This document shows positions 11,094-29,084 of a DNA stretch of 59,546 nucleotides, in pieces (positions within the stretch are counted from its first letter, which is position 1; every line of letters begins with the position of its first letter). The notes beneath the pieces were generated by a model, which was given only the letters and a program-made list of their open reading frames with translations, was not told where the DNA came from and ran no database searches. Origin of the DNA: Methanobrevibacter millerae (GTDB lineage Archaea; Methanobacteriota; Methanobacteria; Methanobacteriales; Methanobacteriaceae); NCBI RefSeq assembly GCF_900103415.1, contig NZ_FMXB01000020.1:1-59546 (forward strand). The letters run 5' to 3'. Position numbers and translations under genes: made by a program.

Positions 11094-11163
11094 AGTAATA
11101 CTTTTTAGAGGTTTTTTACCTCATTAGTAATACTTTAATTAATTATATTAATAATAAAAAAAT
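11094..11163 (+). promoter_or_regulatory. Paired AGTAATACT operator and promoter, copy A
   Basis: AGTAATACTTT occurs at 11094-11104 and 11126-11136, exactly 32 bp apart. The core AGTA-A-TACT is a palindrome, and the first site extends to a perfect 15-bp palindrome. Between them lies GAGGT, five T, ACCTC. The 40 bp at 11124-11163, covering the second site and a TATA-like tract, are identical to 19663-19702 upstream of the CobN-like gene. Confidence 0.85.
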
Positions 11164-11221
11164 TAAATTTTATATGGCTATTCTTTATAGCTGGTTTTTT
11201 TCATATATATGGAGGTACATG

Positions 11222-14200
11222 ATGAAATTTAAAAATAAACTTGGGTTTTTGAGTATATTTTTATTTATTTTAATTATATCTTCAGGAATTGTTTTTGCTG
11301 AGGATTCAGCTCTGCCTTCAGTTGAAAACGGAGAGGTTTCTGGTAATGTAGATATTGCCACAGTCAATCCTTTTTCTACTAAAAATACCAGTGCTGAGCT
11401 TGAATATGAAATTCCGGCAAGTGCAAGTGAGATACAATCCGCTTATGTTGTTGTCTCTACCTACTCAGGTAGTGGGAATTATACTTATGGATTAACAACC
11501 AATATTTCTTTAAGGACTGCCAGTACGACAGAAGTATTGGAATATGCGAATTTAACATTCGTAAATGACACCGCAAACGATCCGGTTGTTTATCCTATAA
11601 CCGATCTTACTTCAAAACAATATTCTGATTATCAAAGTTTAATAAATATAACAGATAAGGTAAAAGGATTATCCTCCGGAGATACTGTTACGATTTCAGT
11701 AAACAATACTGAATTGGAAGGATATATCTTTGACGGAAGAATTAAATTAATAGCTTTAGTCTTTGCTTATAATGATAATGATAACGATAAGATATCCTAT
11801 TGGCTGAATATAGGTCAGGCATGGACAAAAGGAACTTTGACTACGGTCTTCAAAACGAAAGATTTTGATGGTGATTATGAGGATGTTGCTCTAGAATCAG
11901 TCTCTCTTTCAAGCACGGATGCTAATTATACATTAAACGGAATTGAATTGTCAGATCCGATTCAGAGAAAAGGCAGCAACTTTATTTATGATAAATGGGA
12001 TGTCACTGACATTTTTGAAATGGGCAATGACACAAGTCTGGCATGTACAAATACCGGAAAGTATTCCTATAAGGCTGTAATTCAGTTATTGACAGTATAT
12101 AATCCAGAAGTACATTATATTGCTGCTGATATTAAGACGGAATATACCAGTACTCCTAGCGTTTATGCCGGCGTCAACAATACATTAACTGTTAAAGTCA
12201 ACAACTATAATAAAAACTTTAACGGAAGTGTAAAATTATATATCGGCGATGAAGAACTCGATTCAGTTGACGTAGCTATCAATGCATACAATTCAACTTC
12301 AATTACTTTAGTTGATCCGACCATCAGGCCGGTTACTGCAAATACCGTTAATGGAAACAATAATGAGAAAGTTAATTATACCGTTGTTATTGAAGATGCT
12401 GACGGATTTGTGCTAAATGAAACTGATGCCAGCATTGTTTTAGTATATGACGGTTACTTAGGAAAAGATTTCGAATATCCTGGTGCTAATCCGCTTGAAA
12501 GGGAATTCTATATTACCGGTGACGTCATAGTTTTAAACACTGAAGATTATAGTGCTGCTGGTGCTACCAGCAGAAATGACACATATAATGTTGATTTGGA
12601 TGGCGGCGTTGTAAATACTGCTTTGTTATATGTTTCATACAACTGGGATAAAATTGTAGGTGATGACTATAATGCATGGAACACTACATTCAACGGTGTT
12701 GCCATTGCTCCTATTGCAACTTACCGTGACCAGTCTAATTTAGGTGGACTTTATGCTAAATACGGCTATGGTTTAGTAGTTTATAACGTAACTGAGTTAG
12801 TCGTTGACGGAAACAATACATTTGCATTGGAAAAGATTTCCGGTAATGCTGCTGTTTATCCAAGCAACTTAATTGTTTTAACCGATAAGAAGGTTAGTGC
12901 TGTTGAGTCTTATGTTTATATCTGGGAAGAAGCTGACTTATTATCCAAATCATATAATAAGTTTGTTCCTGCCGGATTTAACAGTACTTTTGAAATTGTA
13001 GACGGCAATGCCACTTTATATGTATTCGCTGCAAGCGCTCAGCCAGGTGAAGGTAATATAATCGTTAACAATGAAACCTACACTAACGTTTGGAACGGAA
13101 CTTCCAATTCATTCGATACATTTACTACAGAAGTGGATGCTGAAGATATCAGCGTTTACTTTGAGGCAACCGGCGCAACTATTTTAGGATTACATCAGAT
13201 GGTTGTTGTTGAAAATCCTCGCATTGCAGTAGATAGTGCTTTGAAAACCGAATATACCAGTGTTCCTACAATTTACGCTGGCGTCAACAATACATTGACC
13301 GTAACTGTAACCAACAATGGTGCAGAAATTGAAAATCTCACAGTTTATGTTTTACTTGACGGTGAAGAGTTTGCCAATTACACCATTGATTCATTGGCTG
13401 CAGGTGCCAGTGATGTTAATAATGTTGTTGATTTGACCATCAGGCCAATTACTGCCAATACAGTTAACGGCAATGACAATGAGAAAGTTAATTATATCGT
13501 TGGTATTAGGGGCGCTGACGGCAAAATAATTGATCTTGCTAATTATAGCTTTGTTGTTGTATATGACGGTTACTTAGGTAAAGATTTCGAATATCCTAAT
13601 GCAGAACCTTTATTAAGGGAATTCTTCATTACAGGTGACGTTATTGTTTTAAATACTAAAGATTACAGTGCAGGTGGTGCTACAAACAGAACTGATGTTT
13701 ATGAAATTGATTTAAATGACGGTATTGTTAATACTGCTTTATTATACGTTTCATACAACTGGGATAAGGTTTTAGACGATGATTATAATTCATGGAACAC
13801 TACATTCAACGGTGTTGCTATCGTTCCTATTGCTTCTTACCGTGACCAGTCTAATTTAGGTGGAGCTTCTGCTAAATACGGCTACGGTTTAGTTGTTTAT
13901 GATGTTACTGAGTTAGTCGTTGACGGAAACAATACATTTGCATTGGAAAAGATTTCCGGCATGTCTGCTGTCTATCCAAGCAACTTAATCGTATTGACCG
14001 ATAAGGATGCTAGCGCTGTTGAATCTACTGTTTATATTTGGGAAGAAGCTGATTTGTTATCTAAATCATATAATAAGTTTGTTCCTGCTGGTTTCAACTC
14101 CAATTTCACTGTGATTGACGGTAATGCTACTCTGTTTGTATTTGCTGCAAGCGCTCAAGCAGGTGAAGGTAACATAATCGTTAACAACGAAACTTATGAA

Positions 14201-16474
14201 AACGTCTGGAGCGGATCAAGCTATTCATTCGATATTTTCTCAACCGATGTTAACGGAACTGATATCAGTGTTTACTTTGAGGCAACCGGTTCAACCATTT
14301 TAGGCTTGCACCAGATGGTTGTTGTTGAAAATCCTCGCATTGCAATGTCTAGCGATATGAAATCCGAATATACCAGTGTTCCTAGCGTTTACGCAGGCGT
14401 TAACAATACATTTGCTTTAACCGTTAACAATGACGGCGCAGATGTTGAAAATGTTACAGTTTATGTTTTAGAAGGTCAAAATCTGGTTGGTAATTTCACA
14501 ATTGATTCAATGCTTTCAGGAGATAAGGAAGTCTTTACAGTTGTAGATCCTACAATCTGGCCAATCACTGAAAATACCGTTAACGGAAATGACAATGAGA
14601 TAGCTAATTATACCGTTGTCATTATGGACGCCGACGGCAATATAATTGACCTCGCTAATTACAGCTTTGTCGTTGTATACGACGGTTACTTAGGAAAAGA
14701 TTTCGAATATCCTAACGCTCTATCATTATTATGGGAAATCACTTTCACTGGTGATGCTATCGTTTTAAACACTGATGCTTACAGTGCAGGTGCCGCTACA
14801 AACAGAACTGATGTATATGAAGTTGATTTGGCTAATGGAACAGTCAATAGAGCTTTATTATACGTTTCATACAACTGGGATAAGGCTTTAGACGGTGACT
14901 ATAAAACCTGGAACGCTACATTCAACGGTGTCGCTATCACTCCTATTGAAGCTTTCCGTGACCAGTCCAATTTAGGTGGAGCTTCCGCTAAATACGGCTA
15001 CGGTTTAGTCGTTTATGACGTATCCGAGTTAGTCGTTGACGGAAACAATACCTTTGCATTCGAGAAAATTAAAGGCAATTCCGCTGTCTATCCAAGCAAC
15101 CTTATCGTATTGACAGACAAAAATAATTCCGCATACAAAACCGCTTACATCATTGAGGAAGCTGACTTGCTGTCCAAATCCTATAACAAGTATGTTCCTG
15201 CCGGTTTCGAAACTTCATTTGAAATCGTTGAAGGAAATGCAACATTATACGTATTTGCCGCAAGCGCTCAGGCCGGTGAAGGTAACATTATCGTTAACAA
15301 CGAAACCTATGAAAACGTCTGGAACGGTTCAAGCTATTCATTCGACACCTTCACAGTACCTGTTAACGGAACCGACATTAACGTTTACTTCGAAGCAACC
15401 GGCTCAACCATTTTGGGCCTGCATCAAATGATTATCGTTGAACACGAAAACTATTTGGTCATTGAAGCTCCTGATGTAACCAAATACTACAAAGGATCTG
15501 AAAGATTTGTCGTAACCGTAACGGACTGTGTAGGCACACCAGTAGCTAACAAAACAGTAAGCATTACAATCAACGGAGTAACCTACAACAGAACCACTGA
15601 TGAAAAAGGTATCGCAAGCATGGCTTTAGGCTTGAACAGCGGAGAATACAACGTAACCGCAGCTGTTGACAATAATACTGTTGATTCCATCGTTACCATA
15701 TTGCCGACCGTCAACGGTACTGACGTCGTTAAAGTCTTTAGAAACGGAACCCAGTACTATGCAACTTTCCTTGACTCTGAAGGAAACTACCTCAAGGACG
15801 GCACAACCGTTAACTTCAACATCAACGGCGTAATGTATGAACGTAAGGTATCAGGAAATTACGGTATGGCAAGATTAAACATTAATCTGGAACAGGGAAC
15901 CTATATAATCACTGCAATCAACCCGGTAACCGGAGAAAATGCAGCAAACAACATTACAGTACTTCCAAACATCGTTAACAATACAGATCTGGTAAAATAC
16001 TACAGAAACGATTCCCAATACTACGTAACCATTATAGGTGACGACGGCAATCCTGTAGGCGCCAACGAAACGGTCATTTTCAACATTAACGGTGTAATGT
16101 ATGAAAGAACAACCAATGAAAACGGAACGGCCAGATTAAACATTAACTTGCAGCCGGGCGACTATATCATTACTGCAATGTATAATGGATGCAATGTGGC
16201 AAACAACATTACCGTATTGCCTGTATTGTCTGCTGAAGATATTACAATGACCTACAAGGACGGAACCCAATTTAAAGCCAACCTTGTAGACGGTCAGGGC
16301 AAGCCATTAGCTGATACAAATGTTACTTTCAACATCAACGGTGTCTTCTACGATAGAGCCACCGATGCTAACGGTGTGGCCGCATTGAACATCAACCTGA
16401 TGCCTGGAGAATACATTATAACCTCAAGTTATAATGGAACAAATATCGCAAATACAATTAAAATTAACGGATGA
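11222..16474 (+). CDS. Giant DUF3344/Ig-repeat adhesin-like surface protein
   Basis: About 1750 residues. ATG 11222 is preferred because GGAGGT (11211-11216) ends 5 nt before it, and it yields a clean signal peptide (MKFKNKLGFLSIFLFILII, then FAED). An N-terminal DUF3344-like domain is followed by three near-identical blocks of about 370 residues (starting near 12140, 13250 and 14366). Each contains YDGYLGKDFEYP, YVSYNWDK, YPSNLIVLTDK and ATGxTILGLHQM. The last 350 residues hold four Ig-like repeats with the core FNINGVMYERTT and LNINLxPGxYIITA, ending IKING. No C-terminal membrane helix is present, so attachment must be non-covalent or through another protein. The paralog at 16609 has only one central block. 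Confidence 0.93.
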   Translation: MKFKNKLGFLSIFLFILIISSGIVFAEDSALPSVENGEVSGNVDIATVNPFSTKNTSAELEYEIPASASEIQSAYVVVSTYSGSGNYTYGLTTNISLRTASTTEVLEYANLTFVNDTANDPVVYPITDLTSKQYSDYQSLINITDKVKGLSSGDTVTISVNNTELEGYIFDGRIKLIALVFAYNDNDNDKISYWLNIGQAWTKGTLTTVFKTKDFDGDYEDVALESVSLSSTDANYTLNGIELSDPIQRKGSNFIYDKWDVTDIFEMGNDTSLACTNTGKYSYKAVIQLLTVYNPEVHYIAADIKTEYTSTPSVYAGVNNTLTVKVNNYNKNFNGSVKLYIGDEELDSVDVAINAYNSTSITLVDPTIRPVTANTVNGNNNEKVNYTVVIEDADGFVLNETDASIVLVYDGYLGKDFEYPGANPLEREFYITGDVIVLNTEDYSAAGATSRNDTYNVDLDGGVVNTALLYVSYNWDKIVGDDYNAWNTTFNGVAIAPIATYRDQSNLGGLYAKYGYGLVVYNVTELVVDGNNTFALEKISGNAAVYPSNLIVLTDKKVSAVESYVYIWEEADLLSKSYNKFVPAGFNSTFEIVDGNATLYVFAASAQPGEGNIIVNNETYTNVWNGTSNSFDTFTTEVDAEDISVYFEATGATILGLHQMVVVENPRIAVDSALKTEYTSVPTIYAGVNNTLTVTVTNNGAEIENLTVYVLLDGEEFANYTIDSLAAGASDVNNVVDLTIRPITANTVNGNDNEKVNYIVGIRGADGKIIDLANYSFVVVYDGYLGKDFEYPNAEPLLREFFITGDVIVLNTKDYSAGGATNRTDVYEIDLNDGIVNTALLYVSYNWDKVLDDDYNSWNTTFNGVAIVPIASYRDQSNLGGASAKYGYGLVVYDVTELVVDGNNTFALEKISGMSAVYPSNLIVLTDKDASAVESTVYIWEEADLLSKSYNKFVPAGFNSNFTVIDGNATLFVFAASAQAGEGNIIVNNETYENVWSGSSYSFDIFSTDVNGTDISVYFEATGSTILGLHQMVVVENPRIAMSSDMKSEYTSVPSVYAGVNNTFALTVNNDGADVENVTVYVLEGQNLVGNFTIDSMLSGDKEVFTVVDPTIWPITENTVNGNDNEIANYTVVIMDADGNIIDLANYSFVVVYDGYLGKDFEYPNALSLLWEITFTGDAIVLNTDAYSAGAATNRTDVYEVDLANGTVNRALLYVSYNWDKALDGDYKTWNATFNGVAITPIEAFRDQSNLGGASAKYGYGLVVYDVSELVVDGNNTFAFEKIKGNSAVYPSNLIVLTDKNNSAYKTAYIIEEADLLSKSYNKYVPAGFETSFEIVEGNATLYVFAASAQAGEGNIIVNNETYENVWNGSSYSFDTFTVPVNGTDINVYFEATGSTILGLHQMIIVEHENYLVIEAPDVTKYYKGSERFVVTVTDCVGTPVANKTVSITINGVTYNRTTDEKGIASMALGLNSGEYNVTAAVDNNTVDSIVTILPTVNGTDVVKVFRNGTQYYATFLDSEGNYLKDGTTVNFNINGVMYERKVSGNYGMARLNINLEQGTYIITAINPVTGENAANNITVLPNIVNNTDLVKYYRNDSQYYVTIIGDDGNPVGANETVIFNINGVMYERTTNENGTARLNINLQPGDYIITAMYNGCNVANNITVLPVLSAEDITMTYKDGTQFKANLVDGQGKPLADTNVTFNINGVFYDRATDANGVAALNINLMPGEYIITSSYNGTNIANTIKING

Positions 16475-16501: not shown

Positions 16502-16544
16502 AGTAATACTTTTTTTAGCATTTTCACCAATTCAGTAATACTTT
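16502..16544 (+). promoter_or_regulatory. Paired AGTAATACT operator, copy B
   Basis: AGTAATACTTT at 16502-16512 and 16534-16544, with the same 32-bp spacing as copies A and C. The intervening TTTTCACCAATT resembles TTTTCACCTATT in copy C. It lies 65 bp upstream of the second DUF3344 adhesin. Confidence 0.85.
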
Positions 16545-16608: not shown

Positions 16609-19608
16609 ATGAATTTTAAAAATATTTTTTTATGTTTTACAGTTCTCTTTTTAATTTCTATAATGTCAGGCACTGTTTTTGCTGATGAAGCGCCTGCCAT
16701 GAGTCTGGTTGAAGAGGGAACGGTATCTGGAGATGTAGCAGTACATGCTTCAAATCCATTTCATCCTTCAGGAAGTCTGGAATATACAATTCCCGATGAC
16801 GTAAGTCAGATACGTTCAGCTAATGTGATTGTAAGCTCTTACTCTGGAAGCGGAGCTCCAACGTATGCATTATACTCCAACGTTACTTTGGATACGGGCA
16901 ATGGAGTTGAAGTATTGGGTTATGAGGACTTGCGCTGTGATATTCCTATGGCCAATGATCCTACGGTTTACAGAATCAATGACCATACCACAAAGCAGTT
17001 TTCCGATTATCAGTCAAGCTATAATATCACTGATAAGGTAAAGGACCTCTCTAGTGGCGATACGATTAAGATATCAGTTCAGAATACGAGAAATCCTGAT
17101 TATCAGTTCGACGGCAGAATCAAAATGATATCTCTGGTATTGGCCTATGACGACGGGGACGATGACAAGATAACCTACTGGCTTAATGTCGGACAGTCAT
17201 GGACGCAAACCAGCCGTTCAAACCTGATAAAGACGAAAAATTTCAATGGAGAATATGACGAGGTGACCTTCGAGAATATCGCAACGTCATCCTATTCCGC
17301 ATTGTGCAGAATCAATGGCAAGCTCATATATGACCCTCTTTATGAAAAGCAGGGAAGCTATTTCATTGATGACATATGGGATATTAAAGACAATTTCAAA
17401 GTCGGAATTGACACTAATTTCTCATATAAGGCATCAGAAAGCGGTTTCGGCTCCTTCAAATCTGTTGTTCAGCTGCTGAAGGTAAGCAAATACAACATCA
17501 CTGTAAACGCCACCATAACGCCACAGTACAAGAATACTGTTTATGCGGGTGTCATCAATAATCTGACGGTGGACGTTTCATCAAACAAAAAGATTGATGT
17601 CGTTGTAAAGCTCTATGAGGGTAAAGATGTGCTTTACTCAGAAAACGTCACTTTAAGCAGAGGAAAAACTTTAATGCATTGCATTGACTCTAAAATCAGG
17701 CCGATAACAGAAAATACCGTAAACGGAAACGATAATGAGAAAGTCAATTATACTCTTGTAATCGAAGATGCAAAGGGAAATATTATAAGTGAAACTAATT
17801 CAAGTTTCGTTTTATTGTACAACGGCTATTTCGCAAAAGACCTTGAATATCCAAATGCAAATCCTCTTTTAAGGAAAATCACTGTTGTCGGTGATGTAAT
17901 CGTTTTAAATGGTGATGTTTACAGTGCAGCAGGCACCACCAACAGGACAGATGTCTTTAATCTGGAATTTAACGGAACCGTCAATACCGCTTTGCTTTAT
18001 GTTTCATACAACTGGGATAAAGACGTCAACGGCGACTTCAACACATGGAATGTCACGTTCAATAATGTTTCAATAGCTCCTGTCGCCTCATACCGTGACC
18101 AGTCCAATCTGGGAACATCAGGCAGATACGGATATGGATTGATAGTCTTTAATGTCACAGATCTGGCCGTTTCAGGGGAAAATGTCTTCTCATTCAACAA
18201 GACAGCAAAAATTTGCGCTGTCTATCCGAGCAGCCTTATTGTATTGACTGATAATGATGAAAGCAGCATTAAAACCGTCTACATCTTAGAGGAATCCGAT
18301 TTATTGTATACCAAGTACAATATGGGATTGCCTACCGGTTTCAACACTTTATTTGAAATAACTGACGGAAACGCAACGTTGTACGTATTTGCTGCCGGCG
18401 CACAGTCCGGTGAAGGTAACATTATCGTTAACGGCGAAACCTATGAAAACGTCTGGAACGGAACCACAAATACCTTTGACATGTTCAAAACGGATGTTAA
18501 CGCAACTGATGTGGAAATCTACTTTGAAGCAACCGGAGGAAGCATTTTAGGCCTTCATCAAATGATCGTCGTTGAGTATGAAAATTATCTGAGTGTTGAA
18601 GTTCCTGAAGTCGTAAAATACTTCAAGGGGTCTGAAAGACTTGTTGTTAATGTAAAGGATTACAACGGAAATCCTGTATCAAACAGGACAGTCAACATAA
18701 CATTGAACGGTGTCACATACTCAAGAACGACCGATGAAAACGGAAGTGCAAGTATGGCTTTAGGTTTAAACAGCGGCAAGTATAACGTAACCGCTGATGT
18801 TGATGGATTTAAGACTGAATCAAGCGTTACGATTTTGCCTACAGTCAACGGAACTGACGTTGTAAAGGTATTCAGAAACGCCACCCAGTACTATGCCACA
18901 TTCAGGGACTCCGAAGGCAATTACCTGTCTAACGGCACTGAAGTGACTTTCAACATCAACGGAGTTATGTACAAGCGTTACATTAATGGAAACGAAGGCA
19001 AAGCCAGACTAAACTTAAATCTTGAACAGGGAACCTACGTTATCACCGCAATCAATCCGGTAAATGGTGAAATGGCTGCAAACAACATTACAGTCATTCC
19101 AAGAATCGTCAACAACAACGACTTGGTAAAGTACTACAGAAATGGCTCCCAGTACTATGTAAGCATTTTGGGTGACGACGGTAAACCTGTAGGCGCCAAC
19201 GAAACGGTGACTTTCAACATCAACGGCGTAATGTATGAGAGAAAAACCAACGTGTCAGGCGTTGCAAGGCTCAACATCAACCTGCAGCCTGGAGAATACG
19301 TAATAACCGCAATGTACGGCGGATGCAACGTAGCAAACAACATTACAGTATTGCCTGTATTAACGGCCGAAAACGTTACTATGAGCTACAAGGACGGAAC
19401 CAAATTTAAAGCAACTTTAGTTGATGGTGAGGGAAATCCTTTAGCAAACACAAATGTCACGTTCAACATCAACGGTGTCTTTTATCAAAGAACCACAAAC
19501 GCTACGGGCGTTGCCGCATTGAACATCAATCTGATGCCGGGCGAATACATCATTACCTCAAGCTATAATGATGCAAATATCGCAAACACAATAAAGATCA
19601 ATGGATGA
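16609..19608 (+). CDS. DUF3344/Ig-repeat adhesin-like surface protein (paralog)
   Basis: 999 residues. The signal peptide is MNFKNIFLCFTVLFLISIMS followed by GTVFADE. It has an N-terminal DUF3344-like domain, a single copy of the 370-residue central block (YNGYFAKDLEYP, YVSYNWDK, YPSSLIVLTD, ATGGSILGLHQM) and four C-terminal Ig-like repeats ending IKING, as in the larger paralog. This looks like the unexpanded form of the 11222 gene. GGTGTT lies just before the ATG as a weak ribosome site. It shares the paired operator with its upstream paralog and the downstream CobN-like gene, so the three are probably co-regulated. No C-terminal anchor is seen. Confidence 0.93.
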   Translation: MNFKNIFLCFTVLFLISIMSGTVFADEAPAMSLVEEGTVSGDVAVHASNPFHPSGSLEYTIPDDVSQIRSANVIVSSYSGSGAPTYALYSNVTLDTGNGVEVLGYEDLRCDIPMANDPTVYRINDHTTKQFSDYQSSYNITDKVKDLSSGDTIKISVQNTRNPDYQFDGRIKMISLVLAYDDGDDDKITYWLNVGQSWTQTSRSNLIKTKNFNGEYDEVTFENIATSSYSALCRINGKLIYDPLYEKQGSYFIDDIWDIKDNFKVGIDTNFSYKASESGFGSFKSVVQLLKVSKYNITVNATITPQYKNTVYAGVINNLTVDVSSNKKIDVVVKLYEGKDVLYSENVTLSRGKTLMHCIDSKIRPITENTVNGNDNEKVNYTLVIEDAKGNIISETNSSFVLLYNGYFAKDLEYPNANPLLRKITVVGDVIVLNGDVYSAAGTTNRTDVFNLEFNGTVNTALLYVSYNWDKDVNGDFNTWNVTFNNVSIAPVASYRDQSNLGTSGRYGYGLIVFNVTDLAVSGENVFSFNKTAKICAVYPSSLIVLTDNDESSIKTVYILEESDLLYTKYNMGLPTGFNTLFEITDGNATLYVFAAGAQSGEGNIIVNGETYENVWNGTTNTFDMFKTDVNATDVEIYFEATGGSILGLHQMIVVEYENYLSVEVPEVVKYFKGSERLVVNVKDYNGNPVSNRTVNITLNGVTYSRTTDENGSASMALGLNSGKYNVTADVDGFKTESSVTILPTVNGTDVVKVFRNATQYYATFRDSEGNYLSNGTEVTFNINGVMYKRYINGNEGKARLNLNLEQGTYVITAINPVNGEMAANNITVIPRIVNNNDLVKYYRNGSQYYVSILGDDGKPVGANETVTFNINGVMYERKTNVSGVARLNINLQPGEYVITAMYGGCNVANNITVLPVLTAENVTMSYKDGTKFKATLVDGEGNPLANTNVTFNINGVFYQRTTNATGVAALNINLMPGEYIITSSYNDANIANTIKING

Positions 19609-19632: not shown

Positions 19633-19702
19633 AGTAATACTTTTTCCCATATTTTCACCTATTTAGTAATACTTTAATTAATTATATTAATAATAAAAAA
19701 AT
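19633..19702 (+). promoter_or_regulatory. Paired AGTAATACT operator and promoter, copy C
   Basis: AGTAATACTTT at 19633-19643 and 19665-19675, again 32 bp apart. Bases 19663-19702 are identical to 11124-11163. The second site lies 83 bp upstream of the proposed ATT start of the CobN-like gene, almost the same distance as in copy A. Confidence 0.85.
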
Positions 19703-19758
19703 GATATTAATAGTGAAAAGGATTAAACAAAGTTCTTTTCGAAGGGGGTTTTAATATA

Positions 19759-22700
19759 ATTAAGAGTAAATTTGTTGCTTTTAATTTTAAAAATATAGCA
19801 ATATTAATTATTTTAATTGTTTTATTTTTGAGTTGTATTAATGCAACATTTGCTTTGGAAGACAATGGAACTGTTATTGCAGACAGCGTAAGCTCTCAAA
19901 ATCAGGCTTACAACAAGACAATGCTTCTTGTAAGCGATAACAGTGGAACAAACATCCTTGATTCTGCCGCAAATGAAGTGCTAAACAATTATTCTGACGT
20001 TAACATACAGGTCAGAAGTTCAGCTCAAATCTCCACTATGAAGGAGGAGGAACTTTTCAATCTGGTTGAGAAAAGCGATATCGTACTCATCAACTGGCTT
20101 ACCACCGATGCCGATTCCGTTTTTACAAACCTTTTGATTAAGCATCCTGACCTTTCAAACAAGGAAATGTTTCTTGTACTTGAAAGCTCCTCATCTTCAC
20201 AGCTTAAAACATTTAATCTGGTTAAGAATTCTACTATAAATTATCATAAAATCTTCTCAGACGGAATATTCACTGCAGATTATCTGAATGAATATTTCCA
20301 AACAACAAAAAGAGGCCAATCATTTAATACCGTTAGCGATTATCTGACCAACGGCAACGGAAATAAGGCAAATCCTCTGTTTAACCAGGCGGTCTTATAT
20401 AAAGACTGCAACGATAAGGAAAATGCGATAAACGAGATATTGTGGGCATTGAATGCATGCGGATACAACTGCCAGTATCTTGCCCCTAATTTCCACGAAT
20501 CCTATCAGTACGGCTTATACAGGGACAGATACATGACTCTTGAAGAATACATGAAACTATACTTCAATTCATCAAACGCCTACACCGTAGGTCTACTTGA
20601 AAGTAACATGTATGTATCAAGCGCATCTCTGGAACCTTATTATTCATTGATTAATGCTTTGGAAGCCAAAGGAGTTAACGTCATTCCTGTCGTGGCGGCA
20701 GGAGGGTCAGACGATCAGCTGAAGGTTATGGTTGAGTACTTTACCAATGCTCCTGATTATGAATCATTTTTAGAAAATTCATCAAATTACGAAAGCTATG
20801 TTGATGCGATAATCTCAATGCCTGCATACGGTATTGGGGGAACACTCTTTGATAAGGTCACCGAGTTCTTTGAAACCGCAGGCGTTCCGGTATTCAGGGC
20901 AGTGCACTCCGATTACGTAAGCAATGAGGAATGGGAGTTAAGCACTACCGGACTTCCGGGCAACAGAAGTGACAAATGGTGGCACGTAGCTATCGGCGAA
21001 GCGCAGGGCATCATAGAGGCTACCTTCGTAGGCGGAGTTACCAATGAGATATCCGCCACTACAGGCGCCAAATTAACCGGATACAAGTCTCACGAGACCA
21101 ACATTGACTTGTTTACCGACAGAATCATTTCCTGGATTGATTTGCAGTATGAGGAAAATCAAAACAAGAAGATTTCTCTTCTCTATTACAACTATCCTCC
21201 GGGAAAGCAGAACATCGGTTCAAGCTATTTGGACTCAATGACCAGTATCTACAACCTTTTGCAGACATTAAAGGCGGAAGGCTATGATGTCGGCCAGTTG
21301 CCGGATAACGTAAGCCAGCTGGAAGACATGATTATCAAGTCAGGTATTAACGTAGCTACATGGGCTCCGGGTGAACTGGAAAAGCTGGCAAACAGATCCA
21401 ATGTGGTTCTTCTTCCTGTCAGCGAATATGTGGAATGGTTTGAAAGTCTCGAACCGATTTCCAAACTCCAGGTAACCGAAGGGCCTGTTGCATACATTGG
21501 CGAGCTTTCAAGAAACGCAATAGCCATTGATTATACCGATCCGATGGATGAGAGACTCACCGACTGGTACGGTGAAATCATAGCGCTCTTGCCTGACAAC
21601 TACACTTCAAGGGCAATTCCTATTTTGGATAACATTGTTTCAGCCCTCAGAAAGTATCTCTCAACGGGCCTGGAATCCGACTATGAGATATTTTTAAAAT
21701 ACAAGCAGGAATGGGCTGATTTGGACGTGCCTGGTTTGAACGGATGGGGAGAGGCTCCCGGAAACATAATGACCGTTTGGAGAAACGGAACTCAATACTT
21801 CGTTATTCCCGGTCTTACTTTCGGAAACGTCTTCGTTGCCCCTGAACCTCAAAGGGGATGGGAAGCCGATTCAGATGCACTCTATCACAGCACTGCAGTC
21901 GCTCCGACCCATCAGTATCTTGCGGCATTCTACTATTTCCAGGAATACTATTCATCAGCAATGGTATTTGTCGGAAGGCACGCAACCCACGAATGGCTGC
22001 CTGGAAAGGAAGTTCTGTTGTCAACGACTGATTACGGTTCCATTATGGTTGGAGACGTACCTCAAATCTATTTCTACATCTCTGACGGTTTAGGTGAAGG
22101 TATTCAGGCAAAAAGAAGAGGTTTTGCAGTAATGATTTCTCATCTGACTTCCCCTCTTGCCTACACTCAGCTTTACGGAAACTTAACCGTCCTTGCCGGT
22201 CTGGTTAACGAGTATGAAAACGCAATGGATCAAAGCGCAAAGGACGCACTCCTGTCCGAAATCAGATACATTGTCGATACCAACAACTATGTTGGCTCAA
22301 TGGGCATAAGCAATGAAACATTCAACGGCTATACTGCCGACGAGTTAGTTTCCGCAGTCGACTCTTTCATCAAATCAGTTCAAAATGAGATATACACGTG
22401 GGGTCTGCACGCTCTGGGACAAAACTGGACGGATAAGGATATAGGCCTTTCCGTTTCGACGGCATTGTCACAGCAGTTCACCTATAATGGAGTCACAACC
22501 TCATTGTATGATGAAATAGCTAAAATCAAATACTCCAAAAACTACAATGAGCTCAATTCCCTTGAAAGAGGCGTAGTGATGAATTATTCAGCAGATGTCG
22601 TAATAGCATTAATCTATTATTCAAGCGAGGAAGTGTGCCAGGTGATTGGCGTTAATTCAACTTCACTGCTTGCGGCATTCGATTATGCGAAATTGTACAT

Positions 22701-24768
22701 TTCCCTAATCAAGCTGTCTGTTCAAAAGGAAATCGATTCATTCATTGATGCTTTAAACGGAAAATACATTGCTCCAGGTCCTGCAGGAGACGTGCTTGAC
22801 ATCAATTCACTTCCTACAGGAGGCAATTTCTTCCACGACCAGTCCCAGGAACTTCCAACAGAAGAGGCTTTCAAATACGGAAGGACACTAACATTACTGG
22901 CGTTAGAAGGCCTGACGGACGACACCGAAAAGCTTGTAATGGGAATCTGGTGTGTTGAAACCGCAAGAGATGACGGAGCATTAATTTCAGTTGTATTATA
23001 CTTATTGGGAATGGAACCTGTATACTCCTCCTCACCTAGTGCCGGGGGATACGTGCAGGTAGGAAATGATGAAGACCGTGACGACCATGAGCATGACGAG
23101 GAAGTTGCAGTAGGTGTTAAAACCAACATCATGCCTTCTTATGTTAAATTAAATGATTTGGTCCGTCCTGACGGCTGGGAAAAGAAAAGGATTGACGTTA
23201 CCGTAATCACGAGCGGTAACTTCAGGGACTTGTATTCCACCCAGGCAATGCTTATGGATAACGCATTCAGGATTTCCCTGGCCAGGTCATACATGTACAT
23301 CCTGGACAATGATGATTTGATGTCTGGCCCTTGGGGAAAGGACATTCAGGAAGGTCTCGATGAGGTAATGGCCTCAATCAACTACTACGGCGTCGGCGGC
23401 GAATCATTTGAGGAAAACAGTGTCGCAAAACACTGGGTAAGCGACTTCATATACTACAAGGAACTGGGCTATGATACCACTCATGCGGCCGAATACGCAA
23501 TAACCCGTATCTTTGCGCCTCCGAACGGTGATTACGGTGCAGGAATTGCAAAGTCTGTTTCCATGAGCTGGACCTGGAACGATACCGACGAGCTGTCCGA
23601 GTTCTATCTGGGCAGGATGGGTAACATGTACTCCAAGTTCTACTGGGGCGAAACCAATCCTCTGGTATTTGCAAGGGCTTTAAACAACACAAATGATTTG
23701 ATTGTAAGCCGTAACACCAACGTTTACGGTGTTCTGGACAACGATGATTTCTTCGATTACTGGGGCGGACTTTCAATGACGATGGCTTTCGTTAACGGAA
23801 ACACTCCGAAAATGAACGTATTGATGTATGGAAACAGGAACACTCCATATACTACGTCAATCGAACAGGCCATTTCAAAGGAAATCCTTACCAGATATTC
23901 CAATCCTGACTGGATTAGCGGAATGATGCAGGAAGGATACAGCGGTGCCAGATACATTTCAAACAAGTTCCTCACGGACTTGCTCGGATGGTCAGTGACA
24001 AGGCCTGAAGCCGTTTCAAACTACATGTGGGATGACGCATACGATGTCTATTTCAATGACAAGTACGGCATCGGCGTTACCGACTGGCTTAAAACGGGAA
24101 ACAACAACTATGCGTTCATTTCCTCAGCAGGTACATTACTCACAGCAGCTTATGAAGGCTACTGGAAAACCGATTCTGCAACATTATCCAGCCTTGCCAA
24201 CCAGTGGGCTCAGGCAGTAATTGCAAACGGAGTGGCCTGCTGTGACTGCAGTTGCGGTAACATTGCTATGATGCAGTGGGCGGTTGACTTTATCAATCCG
24301 GATCTGCTTGCCAAGTTCGCAGACCAGATTTTCCAGGCAACGAATCACAATTTTTTCAATCCTGCCAATTTCCAGAACAATCCTAATGCCGATGAGGCGG
24401 ACAGTAATATGGATGACAATACAGGCGTTAATACCAACAACGGTGACGTCCTGTCAAATTCAACTTCATCAACCTTAAAGTCAGACAGCGCAACATCCGG
24501 ATTTACCGGCAAGACTGCTGTCGGTGTTGGAGATTCCTCTTCACAGCCTGCTACAGCTTCAAGCTCATCTGAAATCTATGACTCAGAAAATGTGGGTGAA
24601 ACCGGTGGAGACTCAGCATCCAAAAGCTATGAGGTTGAAAAGTCCGTTTCAAGTAGCAGTACGACAACCGAGAAATCAATGTCAATACAGCTGATAATAT
24701 GTGTAATAATTTTAGTGGGAATTTTTGCTATAGGCTACTTTAGAAATAAACAAAAAGATGATTTTTGA
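19759..24768 (+). CDS. cobN: Exported, membrane-anchored CobN-like (cobaltochelatase/Mg-chelatase H family) protein
   Basis: About 1669 residues, somewhat longer than a typical CobN. The core has RHATHEWLPGKEVLLS, the HxxxEWLPGK-type signature of the CobN/ChlH family. The protein is clearly exported: an N-terminal Lys-rich stretch and helix (IAILIILIVLFLSC, then NATFALED), many NxT/S sequons, a Ser/Thr-rich linker near the end, and a C-terminal helix (LIICVIILVGIFAIGYF) with basic tail. An acidic/His loop (DEDRDDHEHDEE) and a CCDCSC cluster could bind metal. The first conventional start, TTG 19828, would cut off the signal peptide and has no ribosome site. AAGGGGGT (19742-19749) precedes in-frame ATA 19756 and ATT 19759, so a non-AUG start is likely. 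The chelatase substrate is unknown. Confidence 0.88.
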   Translation: MKSKFVAFNFKNIAILIILIVLFLSCINATFALEDNGTVIADSVSSQNQAYNKTMLLVSDNSGTNILDSAANEVLNNYSDVNIQVRSSAQISTMKEEELFNLVEKSDIVLINWLTTDADSVFTNLLIKHPDLSNKEMFLVLESSSSSQLKTFNLVKNSTINYHKIFSDGIFTADYLNEYFQTTKRGQSFNTVSDYLTNGNGNKANPLFNQAVLYKDCNDKENAINEILWALNACGYNCQYLAPNFHESYQYGLYRDRYMTLEEYMKLYFNSSNAYTVGLLESNMYVSSASLEPYYSLINALEAKGVNVIPVVAAGGSDDQLKVMVEYFTNAPDYESFLENSSNYESYVDAIISMPAYGIGGTLFDKVTEFFETAGVPVFRAVHSDYVSNEEWELSTTGLPGNRSDKWWHVAIGEAQGIIEATFVGGVTNEISATTGAKLTGYKSHETNIDLFTDRIISWIDLQYEENQNKKISLLYYNYPPGKQNIGSSYLDSMTSIYNLLQTLKAEGYDVGQLPDNVSQLEDMIIKSGINVATWAPGELEKLANRSNVVLLPVSEYVEWFESLEPISKLQVTEGPVAYIGELSRNAIAIDYTDPMDERLTDWYGEIIALLPDNYTSRAIPILDNIVSALRKYLSTGLESDYEIFLKYKQEWADLDVPGLNGWGEAPGNIMTVWRNGTQYFVIPGLTFGNVFVAPEPQRGWEADSDALYHSTAVAPTHQYLAAFYYFQEYYSSAMVFVGRHATHEWLPGKEVLLSTTDYGSIMVGDVPQIYFYISDGLGEGIQAKRRGFAVMISHLTSPLAYTQLYGNLTVLAGLVNEYENAMDQSAKDALLSEIRYIVDTNNYVGSMGISNETFNGYTADELVSAVDSFIKSVQNEIYTWGLHALGQNWTDKDIGLSVSTALSQQFTYNGVTTSLYDEIAKIKYSKNYNELNSLERGVVMNYSADVVIALIYYSSEEVCQVIGVNSTSLLAAFDYAKLYISLIKLSVQKEIDSFIDALNGKYIAPGPAGDVLDINSLPTGGNFFHDQSQELPTEEAFKYGRTLTLLALEGLTDDTEKLVMGIWCVETARDDGALISVVLYLLGMEPVYSSSPSAGGYVQVGNDEDRDDHEHDEEVAVGVKTNIMPSYVKLNDLVRPDGWEKKRIDVTVITSGNFRDLYSTQAMLMDNAFRISLARSYMYILDNDDLMSGPWGKDIQEGLDEVMASINYYGVGGESFEENSVAKHWVSDFIYYKELGYDTTHAAEYAITRIFAPPNGDYGAGIAKSVSMSWTWNDTDELSEFYLGRMGNMYSKFYWGETNPLVFARALNNTNDLIVSRNTNVYGVLDNDDFFDYWGGLSMTMAFVNGNTPKMNVLMYGNRNTPYTTSIEQAISKEILTRYSNPDWISGMMQEGYSGARYISNKFLTDLLGWSVTRPEAVSNYMWDDAYDVYFNDKYGIGVTDWLKTGNNNYAFISSAGTLLTAAYEGYWKTDSATLSSLANQWAQAVIANGVACCDCSCGNIAMMQWAVDFINPDLLAKFADQIFQATNHNFFNPANFQNNPNADEADSNMDDNTGVNTNNGDVLSNSTSSTLKSDSATSGFTGKTAVGVGDSSSQPATASSSSEIYDSENVGETGGDSASKSYEVEKSVSSSSTTTEKSMSIQLIICVIILVGIFAIGYFRNKQKDDF

Positions 24769-24799
24769 ATAACATTCGTTATTCTTTATTTTCTTTTTT
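24767..24799 (+). terminator. Hairpin terminator after CobN-like gene
   Basis: GAATAAC (24767-24773) and GTTATTC (24778-24784) form a perfect 7-bp stem with loop ATTC, overlapping the last base of the stop. A T-rich run follows. It may separate the chelatase transcript from the membrane module. Confidence 0.7.
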
Positions 24800-24893
24800 T
24801 TTGGATATGAATTAAAATTTATATAGTAAAAAAACGAAATATTAAAATGTAATTGATTTTTATTAATTAATTATTTTTAGAGAGGAATTAAAT

Positions 24894-25604
24894 ATGGATA
24901 TGATGAGTGTTTTATGGCAATTTGGTATCATTGCAGCTATTCTTGTCTTTGGTATTAAAGTGGGTTTAGCTTCAGGACTGGCCAATCTGTCAAAGAAATT
25001 ATTAGCGTTGATCTGTATAGGATATGGTGGTGGAGTACTTATTATTTCCGCTATAGCATCTTTATATGCAGAACAAATCACTCAAGCTATTTATAGTTAT
25101 AATTCTATATTCTATATGATTATGGCCCTTATCATGATTATAGCTGGTCTGATCACTATACGGGAATATAAGGTCCATGATCACAATACGAGTACTGCAA
25201 CGTCGCTGGCGGTAATTGCACCTTGTCCGTGCTGTTTCGGTTCAATCGTTGCAAGTATCTTAATTGTCGCTCCAACCATTGGAGTCGGCGCTTTTTATTT
25301 AAGCTGGTTTGCTGCTGCAACTTTGGTGGCTGTTATTATAATAACATACTTCGCATCAAACATCATAGTCAAGCATATAAGCAAGCCTTATCCGATTATC
25401 CTGGGAAACTTCATGCTTCTTTTAGGTGCTTATTTCCTGCTTTCTGCAATTGTAATTCCTAATATTGCAGGTTCACTAAGCAAGGATTTCGGCAACCTCA
25501 CGATGAGCTCTCCCGAATCCATTATCGCTATCGTTGTTATGCTGGTGATTCTGGTGATAATTGGAGTATTTTTAAATAAGAAAAGTAAACGTCTTTTAGA
25601 ATGA
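24894..25604 (+). CDS. DUF2162-type predicted membrane transporter
   Basis: 236 residues with six or more predicted membrane helices and almost no loops, matching the DUF2162 family found in methanogens. A distinctive APCPCCFGSIVASI segment places a CPCC motif at the start of a membrane helix, a candidate metal or thiol-redox site. It stands between the CobN-like gene and the ExbB/ExbD-like pair, 20 bp before the ExbB gene, so it is probably part of the same functional system. Ribosome site GAGGAA precedes the ATG. The transported substrate is unknown; cobalt, nickel or a corrinoid are guesses from context. Confidence 0.8.
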   Translation: MDMMSVLWQFGIIAAILVFGIKVGLASGLANLSKKLLALICIGYGGGVLIISAIASLYAEQITQAIYSYNSIFYMIMALIMIIAGLITIREYKVHDHNTSTATSLAVIAPCPCCFGSIVASILIVAPTIGVGAFYLSWFAAATLVAVIIITYFASNIIVKHISKPYPIILGNFMLLLGAYFLLSAIVIPNIAGSLSKDFGNLTMSSPESIIAIVVMLVILVIIGVFLNKKSKRLLE

Positions 25605-25624
25605 TAATTATTAGGTGATATATA

Positions 25625-26272
25625 ATGAGTGTAAGTATACCTGGTGGAGAATTTTTAACCGGTTCTTTGGATGTTATTTCACAGAGTCTGACCATTCCTG
25701 TATTGGTTATTCTTTTGATTATTGTGATTATTTCCATAATCTCATTGGGTGGATTAATATCTGAATATACTTCAAGAAAGAAAGTTCCAGTCGGAACTAT
25801 AAGGGATTTGATTTATCAAATCAACTCTGCCGCTTCCGTTGATGCACTTATAGGCATTATCGAAGGTGCGGAAATCCCAAAATCCCAGAAAAAAGTTTTA
25901 ACTGAAATCGCTAGCTCTTCAGCATTGGATGTAAATTCCAGAGAAGCTTTAGCACGTAAATTAGTCGAATATGAAGAAGAAAAAATCGATAATACATTAA
26001 GAAAAACCGATATCATTACAAAAGTGGGTCCTACCTTAGGGTTAATGGGTACTTTAATTCCTATGGGTCCGGGTCTTGCTGCATTAGGCGCAGGTGACGT
26101 AAATACCCTTGCGGAATCATTGACGCTTGCGTTCAACACAACAATTGTAGGTATCGGTTCCGGTGCTTTATGTTATTTCATCGGTAAAATCAGATCCGGC
26201 TGGTATGACCGTTACTTATCCGATTTGGATGCTTTATCTGATGCTGTTTTGGATTACATGAATAAACAGTGA
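25625..26272 (+). CDS. MotA/TolQ/ExbB family proton channel subunit
   Basis: 215 residues. There is one N-terminal membrane helix (around LVILLIIVIISIISLGG), a cytoplasmic domain, and two C-terminal helices containing GPTLGLMGTLIPMGPGL and TLAFNTTIVGIGSGALCY, the signature of ExbB/TolQ/MotA stators. The family converts ion flow into mechanical work on a partner protein. The ExbD-like partner is the next gene, 5 bp downstream. In an archaeon without an outer membrane the target cannot be a TonB receptor; the adjacent exported CobN-like protein is the obvious candidate. Confidence 0.92.
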   Translation: MSVSIPGGEFLTGSLDVISQSLTIPVLVILLIIVIISIISLGGLISEYTSRKKVPVGTIRDLIYQINSAASVDALIGIIEGAEIPKSQKKVLTEIASSSALDVNSREALARKLVEYEEEKIDNTLRKTDIITKVGPTLGLMGTLIPMGPGLAALGAGDVNTLAESLTLAFNTTIVGIGSGALCYFIGKIRSGWYDRYLSDLDALSDAVLDYMNKQ

Positions 26273-26277
26273 TTGTT

Positions 26278-26616
26278 ATGGTTCGAAAAAAACAAAGAAG
26301 ACGATCTAATCGTGTTGAAGAAGACCCTATGGCTGGTACGGCTAACCTTGTGGATGCAATGCTTGTTATTGCAGTTGGTTTTCTTGTCTTTGTAATCATC
26401 AGTTGGAACATGCAATCAATTGTCTTTAATGATGACATGACGCAAGAACAAAAGCAACAGGTTATGGAGACTATCAGCAGTGTTTCTGAAGTTACTCAGG
26501 GTCAGGAACTGAATGAGACTCCAGACACTTCAAACAGCTCAGGTCAGGGTTATACTGAAATGGGTAAGGTTTATAAAGATCCATCGACAGGTAAGCTGAT
26601 TATGGTAGAGGGTTGA
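26278..26616 (+). CDS. DUF2149 protein, ExbD/TolR-like stator subunit
   Basis: 112 residues. A basic N-terminus (VRKKQRRRSN) precedes one membrane helix, GTANLVDAMLVIAVGFLVF, whose Asp26 sits where ExbD, TolR and MotB carry the proton-binding aspartate (compare the IDVMLVLL pattern of ExbD). The rest is a short external domain rich in Gln/Ser, ending VYKDPSTGKLIMVEG, much smaller than a typical ExbD periplasmic domain. The start is ATG 26278: GTGAT overlapping the upstream stop is the ribosome site, and the in-frame GTG 26269 is part of it. This gene ends the operon, with a hairpin overlapping its stop. Confidence 0.85.
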   Translation: MVRKKQRRRSNRVEEDPMAGTANLVDAMLVIAVGFLVFVIISWNMQSIVFNDDMTQEQKQQVMETISSVSEVTQGQELNETPDTSNSSGQGYTEMGKVYKDPSTGKLIMVEG

Positions 26617-28525: not shown

Positions 28526-28810
28526 ATGTTGGAACAATATTTGCCATTTATGTGGTTAATTATTTTTGGAAATATTGAAAACCTGATTCTTGCTTCACAG
28601 GGTGTTGTCGAAGGTGTGAATCCAAAAGTTTTAGGTTTGTTAAGTATAATTATTGTAATCCTCTGGTTTATTTTGGGAACTGTAGCGACCGACGCTGCAA
28701 TGCAGTACTCCAATATCATCAACTTTATTGGTGGTCTTGCAATATTCATTTTGGGTATTCAGGCCGTTGTGGGAGCCGTTAAAAATTTAAGATCAAAAGG
28801 AGATGCTTAA
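28526..28810 (+). CDS. Small three-helix membrane protein (tandem paralog 1)
   Basis: 94 residues with three predicted membrane helices. The first contains FGNIENLILASQG, the second LLSIIIVILWFILGTVAT, the third FIGGLAIFILGIQAVVGAV. The sequence is about half the size of common six-helix transporters (LysE/TerC-like), so the product may pair with its neighbour. I do not recognise a specific family. It overlaps or abuts the next gene, its closest paralog. TATA-like elements lie in the 66-bp divergent spacer. Confidence 0.7.
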   Translation: MLEQYLPFMWLIIFGNIENLILASQGVVEGVNPKVLGLLSIIIVILWFILGTVATDAAMQYSNIINFIGGLAIFILGIQAVVGAVKNLRSKGDA

Positions 28811-28811
28811 G

Positions 28812-29084
28812 ATGGTAAATTGGAAAGATTATGCTCCTTTTTCAGGTTTGCTTATTTTTGGAAACATCGAAAACCTTATTCTGGCTTCCCAGGGTGCTGT
28901 AGCACATGTAAATCCGATTATACTGTGTGTATTAAGTCTGATTGCAGTTATCATTTGGCTGTTACTGGGAACTTACGCCACTAAAATAGCTATAAAATAT
29001 GCAGATTACATTGAAATAATCGGTGGAATTGCCATTATTCTTTTAGGTATTGAGGCAATGCTTGAAGGAGTCGGAATATTATAA
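28812..29084 (+). CDS. Small three-helix membrane protein (tandem paralog 2)
   Basis: 90 residues. It shares FGNIENLILASQGAV and the helix pattern with the upstream gene (LSLIAVIIWLLLGTYAT, IIGGIAIILLGIEAM). ATG 28812 is preferred to 28803 because AAGGAGA at 28797-28803 is the ribosome site. The conserved glutamate and asparagine in the first helix of both copies may be functional. An obligate heterodimer forming a six-helix transporter is inferred, not shown. A YhgE/Pip gene starts 15 bp downstream. Confidence 0.7.
   Translation: MVNWKDYAPFSGLLIFGNIENLILASQGAVAHVNPIILCVLSLIAVIIWLLLGTYATKIAIKYADYIEIIGGIAIILLGIEAMLEGVGIL

Follow-up and report, generated by a model that had tools for sequence, protein, structure and literature searches.

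The locus described here suggests an undescribed, motor-driven way of obtaining metals from outside the cell, and we see an even chance that it encodes a cell-surface machine for processing metallo-tetrapyrroles in which ion motive force replaces AAA+ ATPases. What speaks for such a machine is the order of its genes, the homology of three of its proteins to components S, U and V of the bacterial Hmu system, a C-terminal tail shared among exported proteins, the co-occurrence of its genes across genomes, and a set of shared operators. The tail, the coupling of CobN to DUF2162, the operators and the AAA+ contrast between exported and cytoplasmic CobNs are new; the core layout is known from Hmu.

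Gene order and conservation of the locus

The window (the whole stretch of 59,546 nucleotides that was analysed, contig C20 of a 2.72-Mb genome in 48 contigs) carries on its + strand, in this order, genes for a CobN-like protein, a DUF2162 protein, an ExbB-like protein and a DUF2149 protein (Table 1; ORF calls and Pfam matches), the same four-gene module, in the same order, that the sequence-only reading had described. Of the span given there (19633-26616), the right edge is indeed the end of the DUF2149 gene, but the left edge does not lie inside the CobN gene: 19633 is exactly the start of the first box of an operator pair outside it, and the CobN frame is open only from 19717. Further downstream (28526-29084) lie two small membrane proteins, of 94 and 93 aa, which are related to each other and have no Pfam match.

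Table 1. Coordinates of genes, operators and sequence motifs at the locus.
Feature	Position	Strand	Basis
Paired operator box AGTAATACT-N23-AGTAATACT, before first DUF3344 gene	11094..11134	+	Motif search
DUF3344/Ig-like surface protein, exported, 1766 aa, likely accessory	11174..16474	+	ORF; DUF3344 core match; shared operator
Second paired operator box, same 32-bp period	16502..16542	+	Motif search
DUF3344/Ig-like surface protein, exported, 999 aa, likely accessory	16609..19608	+	PF11824, 178 bits
Third paired operator box, before CobN operon	19633..19673	+	Motif search
CobN-like class I chelatase large-subunit homologue, exported, C-anchored	19759..24768	+	CobN-Mg_chel PF02514, 710 bits, E 6e-213; nearest solved relative HmuS 9d26
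TTG start candidate	19828	+	First standard start codon in CobN frame
Active-site His (GRHATHEW), conserved, equivalent to HmuS His-538	21979..21981	+	Residue mapping
Asp at place of HmuS His-1209 (DNDDFFDYWGG)	23746..23748	+	Residue mapping
KSYEV tail box before C-terminal TM of CobN-like protein	24622..24636	+	Whole tail match 24622-24756
DUF2162 membrane protein, 7-8 TM	24894..25604	+	PF09930, 224 bits
APCPCC motif of DUF2162, CobN-associated form	25218..25235	+	Motif comparison across loci
ExbB/TolQ/MotA-type channel, HmuU homologue	25625..26272	+	MotA_ExbB PF01618, 38.5 bits (cut-off 22.9); hhalign
DUF2149 protein, ExbD-like, HmuV homologue	26269..26616	+	PF09919, 81 bits; hhalign 97.8%
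DUF2149 TM Asp	26353-26355	+	Conserved in archaea and HmuV

Among 20 near-complete genomes covering eight genera the cassette lies directly 3' of CobN in 11, and within about 12 kb of it in seven of the remaining nine. The layout is thus conserved and not a product of chance, and this shared neighbourhood bears out the linkage of the stator pair to CobN that had been claimed. In a phylum sample of 150 genomes, DUF2149 was found in 134 (up to six copies per genome) and CobN in 118; both occur in 114, DUF2149 only in 20, CobN only in four and neither in 12. Scattered distribution, which the sequence-only reading had named as evidence against itself, is seen only for extra copies of the cassette. 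CobN as the sole client of the stator does not hold up, since DUF2149 occurs without CobN in those 20 genomes and stator copies without CobN adjoin exported proteins with an anchor that are of FmdE-domain (about 930-1014 aa), Ig-like or beta-helix type. The stator cassette is therefore modular, and not for CobN alone.

DUF2162 follows CobN more closely. CPCC is present in every DUF2162 of the CobN loci read, and the DNA pattern for APCPCC/VPCPCC occurs in 114 of the 150 genomes, its reversed control in none. An APCPCC-type DUF2162 is present in 111 of the 118 genomes with CobN; seven genomes have CobN only, three the motif only and 29 neither (Fisher P 4e-21, a value that ignores the shared ancestry of the genomes). 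The counts for 91 good genomes are 77, two, zero and 12, respectively, and genomes lacking both CobN and APCPCC are spread across eight genera. A universal redox pair formed by the DUF2162 cysteines is not supported, the motif being missing in several copies with a non-CobN client.

The window contains six copies of AGTAWTACT against an expectation of 0.39. They form three pairs, each with its boxes exactly 32 bp apart, and these precede the two DUF3344 genes and CobN. A background of 400 kb, sampled as stretches from the same genome, holds four single boxes and no pair with one mismatch per box allowed. The 32-bp period recurs beside CobN and DUF3344 in related loci, and the DUF3344 core is present in seven CobN-cassette loci. 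A 7-base core precedes 24 of 56 target genes compared with 28 of 563 others, a comparison in which the AT content of the targets is higher and some of the "others" duplicate or adjoin targets. No archaeal NikR motif to set beside AGTAWTACT was found in the literature searched.

The CobN-like protein, its tail and its stator

By its full-length CobN/ChlH match and conserved cleft His, the protein belongs to the class I chelatase large-subunit superfamily. From its N-terminus it runs through a signal segment and the chelatase body to a Ser-rich linker, followed by the KSYEV box and a single C-terminal TM segment; the hydrophobic signal segment (IKSKFVAFNFKNIAILIILIVLFLSCINATFA), linker and C-terminal segment agree with the exported protein that had been proposed. 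The cytoplasmic location expected of a CobN cobaltochelatase does not apply to a protein with both signal and anchor, and the NCBIfam CobN equivalog TIGR02257 scores 415 bits against a cut-off of 822, the CobN and BchH cut-offs both lying far above the scores of the window protein. No CobS/CobT or ChlI/ChlD partner gene lies beside CobN within the window, and PF01078 matches in the window's own genome are weak and partial. The same genome encodes another exported CobN, on contig C15, where the cassette is missing. CobN paralogues are strongly expanded in four genomes of the order and class (G010, G015, G006 and G001), where some copies are broken by stops.

Starting at the TTG would remove the signal peptide of CobN. 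The ribosome-binding site points instead to an ATA/ATT near 19756-19759 that this genome shares with a relative (L044), which makes a non-canonical start codon probable. Gene prediction programs will cut off the signal peptide here, both in the window (19743-19830) and in L044.

By residue mapping the protein shares superfamily residues with HmuS, a proven haem de-chelatase that removes iron from haem (PMC12583661), but not the residues that define HmuS. The superfamily His and Glu equivalent to HmuS 538 and 577 are kept, the His being residue 718 when counted from the TTG. The HmuS haem ligands Met-79 and His-254 are replaced by Leu and Ala; the HmuS motif LSLDHxxEFMGG is absent, with LDNDDFFDYWGG in its place and Asp for both His-1209 and Glu-1212; and the Met-rich insertion, 169-231 residues with 13-21 Met in typical HmuS, is absent, its place taken by a 71-residue segment with one Met. 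The cytoplasmic CobN of L159 has the His/Glu pair of HmuS. These missing hallmarks rule out a true HmuS, and we classify the protein on its residues as a relative of HmuS and not a member of its family. Haem de-chelation is accordingly not transferable to it.

Exported CobNs and most other stator-adjacent exported proteins have a C-terminal tail in common ([K/N][SA]YE[VI]-linker-TM-G[YF]). Every exported CobN examined has it, in its strict or its relaxed form; cytoplasmic CobNs lack it, and it is missing on some beta-helix stator clients. A profile of the tail was built from the exported CobN and client families themselves, so matches on those families are not independent. By this profile the window's genome encodes about seven proteins with the tail and some thermophiles encode eight or nine, each of these genomes having one DUF2149. 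Full matches occur in two of 16 genomes without DUF2149; in both, the assembly is fragmented or incomplete and CobN is present too. Seven of 11 CobN-less genomes with DUF2149 have tail matches, several directly before ExbB-DUF2149; the tail thus follows the stator even where CobN is lacking, and a tail tied to CobN alone was rejected. We infer that it is a candidate docking element for the stator. At the place of the archaeal YEV box, the C-termini of Bacteroidota HmuS have a patch (MKKE) of moderate conservation within the variable linker that leads to the last TM.

The stator itself is recognisable in both parts. The ExbB-like channel belongs to the ExbB/TolQ/MotA family and conserves GTLIP and TT (polar channel residues). 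DUF2149 appears ExbD/TolR-like, with a predicted single N-terminal TM carrying a protonatable Asp that is conserved at at least 85% in 64 archaeal DUF2149 and HmuV sequences. The earlier suggestion that the pair has a target other than a TonB receptor is supported.

A candidate mechanism and its alternatives

The tetrapyrrole or metal theme first proposed is supported. Neighbours of CobN paralogues or sister proteins, at loci other than the window's, point to metal release. In all five genomes of one genus (L157, L181-L184), FeoA (named from size and sequence) and FeoB come next after an exported CobN with the tail. This agrees with the adjacent numbers of cobN (17530) and feoAB (17520, 17510) in Methanothermobacter marburgensis (PMC3087415) and suggests that the genus is Methanothermobacter. 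In that species, high-level production of a protein annotated CobN1, which may not be this CobN, is confined to nickel limitation (PMC12350162). FmdE-domain tail proteins adjoin CbiM in six loci, one of them in the window's genome. At L147 (9310-14445) an exported FmdE-domain tail protein is divergent from CbiM and accompanied by a small exported protein with HPGHG, a pair that likely serves surface capture of Co or Ni.

For the machine that we favour, the transfer of energy, the direction of the reaction, the substrate and the roles of DUF2162 and DUF3344 are our reading of these data. DUF3344 proteins would present or capture a tetrapyrrole compound on the surface, and the anchored CobN-like protein would clamp the macrocycle in its central cleft and take the metal out (insertion being less likely). 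The ExbB/DUF2149 stator would engage the YEV tail and convert the ion gradient into mechanical work. It would stand in for the AAA+ subunits (CobST, ChlID) by which cytoplasmic relatives are driven and which cannot work outside the cell because there is no ATP there. DUF2162 with APCPCC would be the membrane partner specific to CobN and might hand the metal on. We propose a stator in place of an AAA+ ATPase mainly because cytoplasmic CobNs, which have neither signal nor tail (L159, 1205 aa; L041, 1236 aa), lie within a few genes of a ChlI/ChlD-type AAA-VWA gene, with a fused AAA-VWA ChlD protein, whereas no AAA+ ChlD-type neighbour of exported CobNs was found in the loci read.

The position of the tail motif before a TM segment, laid out as a C-terminal anchor, and its presence on unrelated proteins (FmdE, Ig-like and others) would also suit a sorting or anchoring signal, with the stator cassette as a processing or placement device instead of a catalytic drive. 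We think this unlikely: exosortase/archaeosortase PF09721 was absent from 11 genomes, with a positive M. jannaschii control, leaving an archaeosortase signal without its cognate enzyme there; ExbB/ExbD-type pairs are energy converters; and other anchored surface proteins at the same loci lack the tail. Capture and uptake only, in which CobN binds a corrinoid, haem or F430-like compound and DUF2162, energised by the stator, carries it across, also strikes us as improbable. Pfam does label DUF2162 a predicted transporter, and its APCPCC-type accompanies CobN almost one to one; yet the CobN-like protein retains the superfamily's catalytic His and Glu, DUF2162 is small, with 7-8 TM and no fold match (predicted structure with mean pLDDT 77, no significant PDB match), and FeoAB beside a CobN paralogue suggests free metal. 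It is very doubtful that the locus encodes an external cobalt or nickel chelatase finishing a cofactor precursor, given that exported CobNs have no CobST/ChlID partner beside them, that the NCBIfam CobN and BchH cut-offs are far from reached, and that biosynthesis outside the cell has no clear reason, even though the superfamily inserts Mg and Co and the acidic cleft motif lacks the HmuS His.

Extending the preferred reading, it is possible, if somewhat short of an even chance, that Methanobacteria have a general system of ion-motive-force transduction for surface proteins, comparable to TonB in bacteria. Its stator would read the YEV tail on several membrane-anchored surface enzymes and, in the CobN types, do the work of the chelatase AAA+ motor. 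By extension, HmuU/HmuV in Bacteroidota would then power HmuS, instead of or besides the outer-membrane receptor. The archaeal core is colinear with that of Hmu although there is no outer membrane, which suggests a purpose for the conserved stator and opens the roles of HmuT, U and V to testing. If it is a docking element, the tail would identify a group of methanogen surface enzymes that are driven by a motor, and a route by which tetrapyrroles may supply Ni, Co or Fe.

Comparison with known systems

The closest parallel is Hmu (hmuYRSTUV) of Bacteroidota, which likewise combines an exported, anchored CobN-type protein, a 7-8 TM protein, an ExbB homologue and DUF2149, in the same order. The best PDB match of the CobN-like protein is HmuS (9d26), named Bacteroidota loci run HmuS, 7-TM protein, ExbB, DUF2149 as does the archaeal locus, and hhalign aligns HmuU with the archaeal ExbB (probability 100%, 34% identity), HmuV with DUF2149 (97.8%) and HmuS with the archaeal CobN (100%). 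By these profile comparisons S, U and V are homologous to their archaeal counterparts and the layout matches hmuS-T-U-V, with T alike in position only: hhalign of DUF2162 and HmuT (probability 0.6%) detects no homology, fold searches with each give no significant match, and DUF2162 as an HmuT homologue was discarded. The "unexplored system" of the sequence-only reading is not wholly unexplored, since CobN-x-ExbB-DUF2149 is the core of hmuS-T-U-V. HmuU/V have been assigned to powering the outer-membrane receptor and the role of HmuT called unclear; purified HmuS is active in vitro without the stator (PMC12583661), which counts against the machine that we favour. The same authors call archaeal use of HmuS homologues unclear and describe archaea as lacking complete hmu operons (PMC12583661, 2025). 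By analogy, the archaeal module may operate as the inner part of Hmu does, although it has no outer membrane, HmuY or HmuR, DUF2162 has no detectable relation to HmuT, and the HmuS active-site and haem-site residues and Met-rich insertion are absent.

With the class I chelatases CobNST and ChlHID the locus shares the large-subunit family and the conserved His/Glu, but its protein is surface-located, with signal, tail and anchor, and has no AAA+ partner gene nearby. As in TonB-ExbB-ExbD and the Tol/Mot stators, an ExbB-type channel is paired with a single-TM protein carrying a membrane Asp, and a single stator could work for a number of clients with the tail, much as several receptors share TonB; unlike those systems, it has no TonB or outer membrane, its partner is DUF2149, and the client itself carries the candidate docking tail, ahead of a membrane anchor. 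The cobN-exbB-exbD-tonB cluster of Geobacter lovleyi, for which transport was proposed, also places an orphan CobN without CobST beside a stator, but in a Gram-negative host with outer-membrane receptors (PMC3403914). Haloarchaeal CobN-ChlID, for which salvage has been suggested, is likewise an archaeal CobN homologue of unclear role; it differs in having an AAA+ subunit as partner, and in this resembles the cytoplasmic CobNs seen here (PMC8305020).
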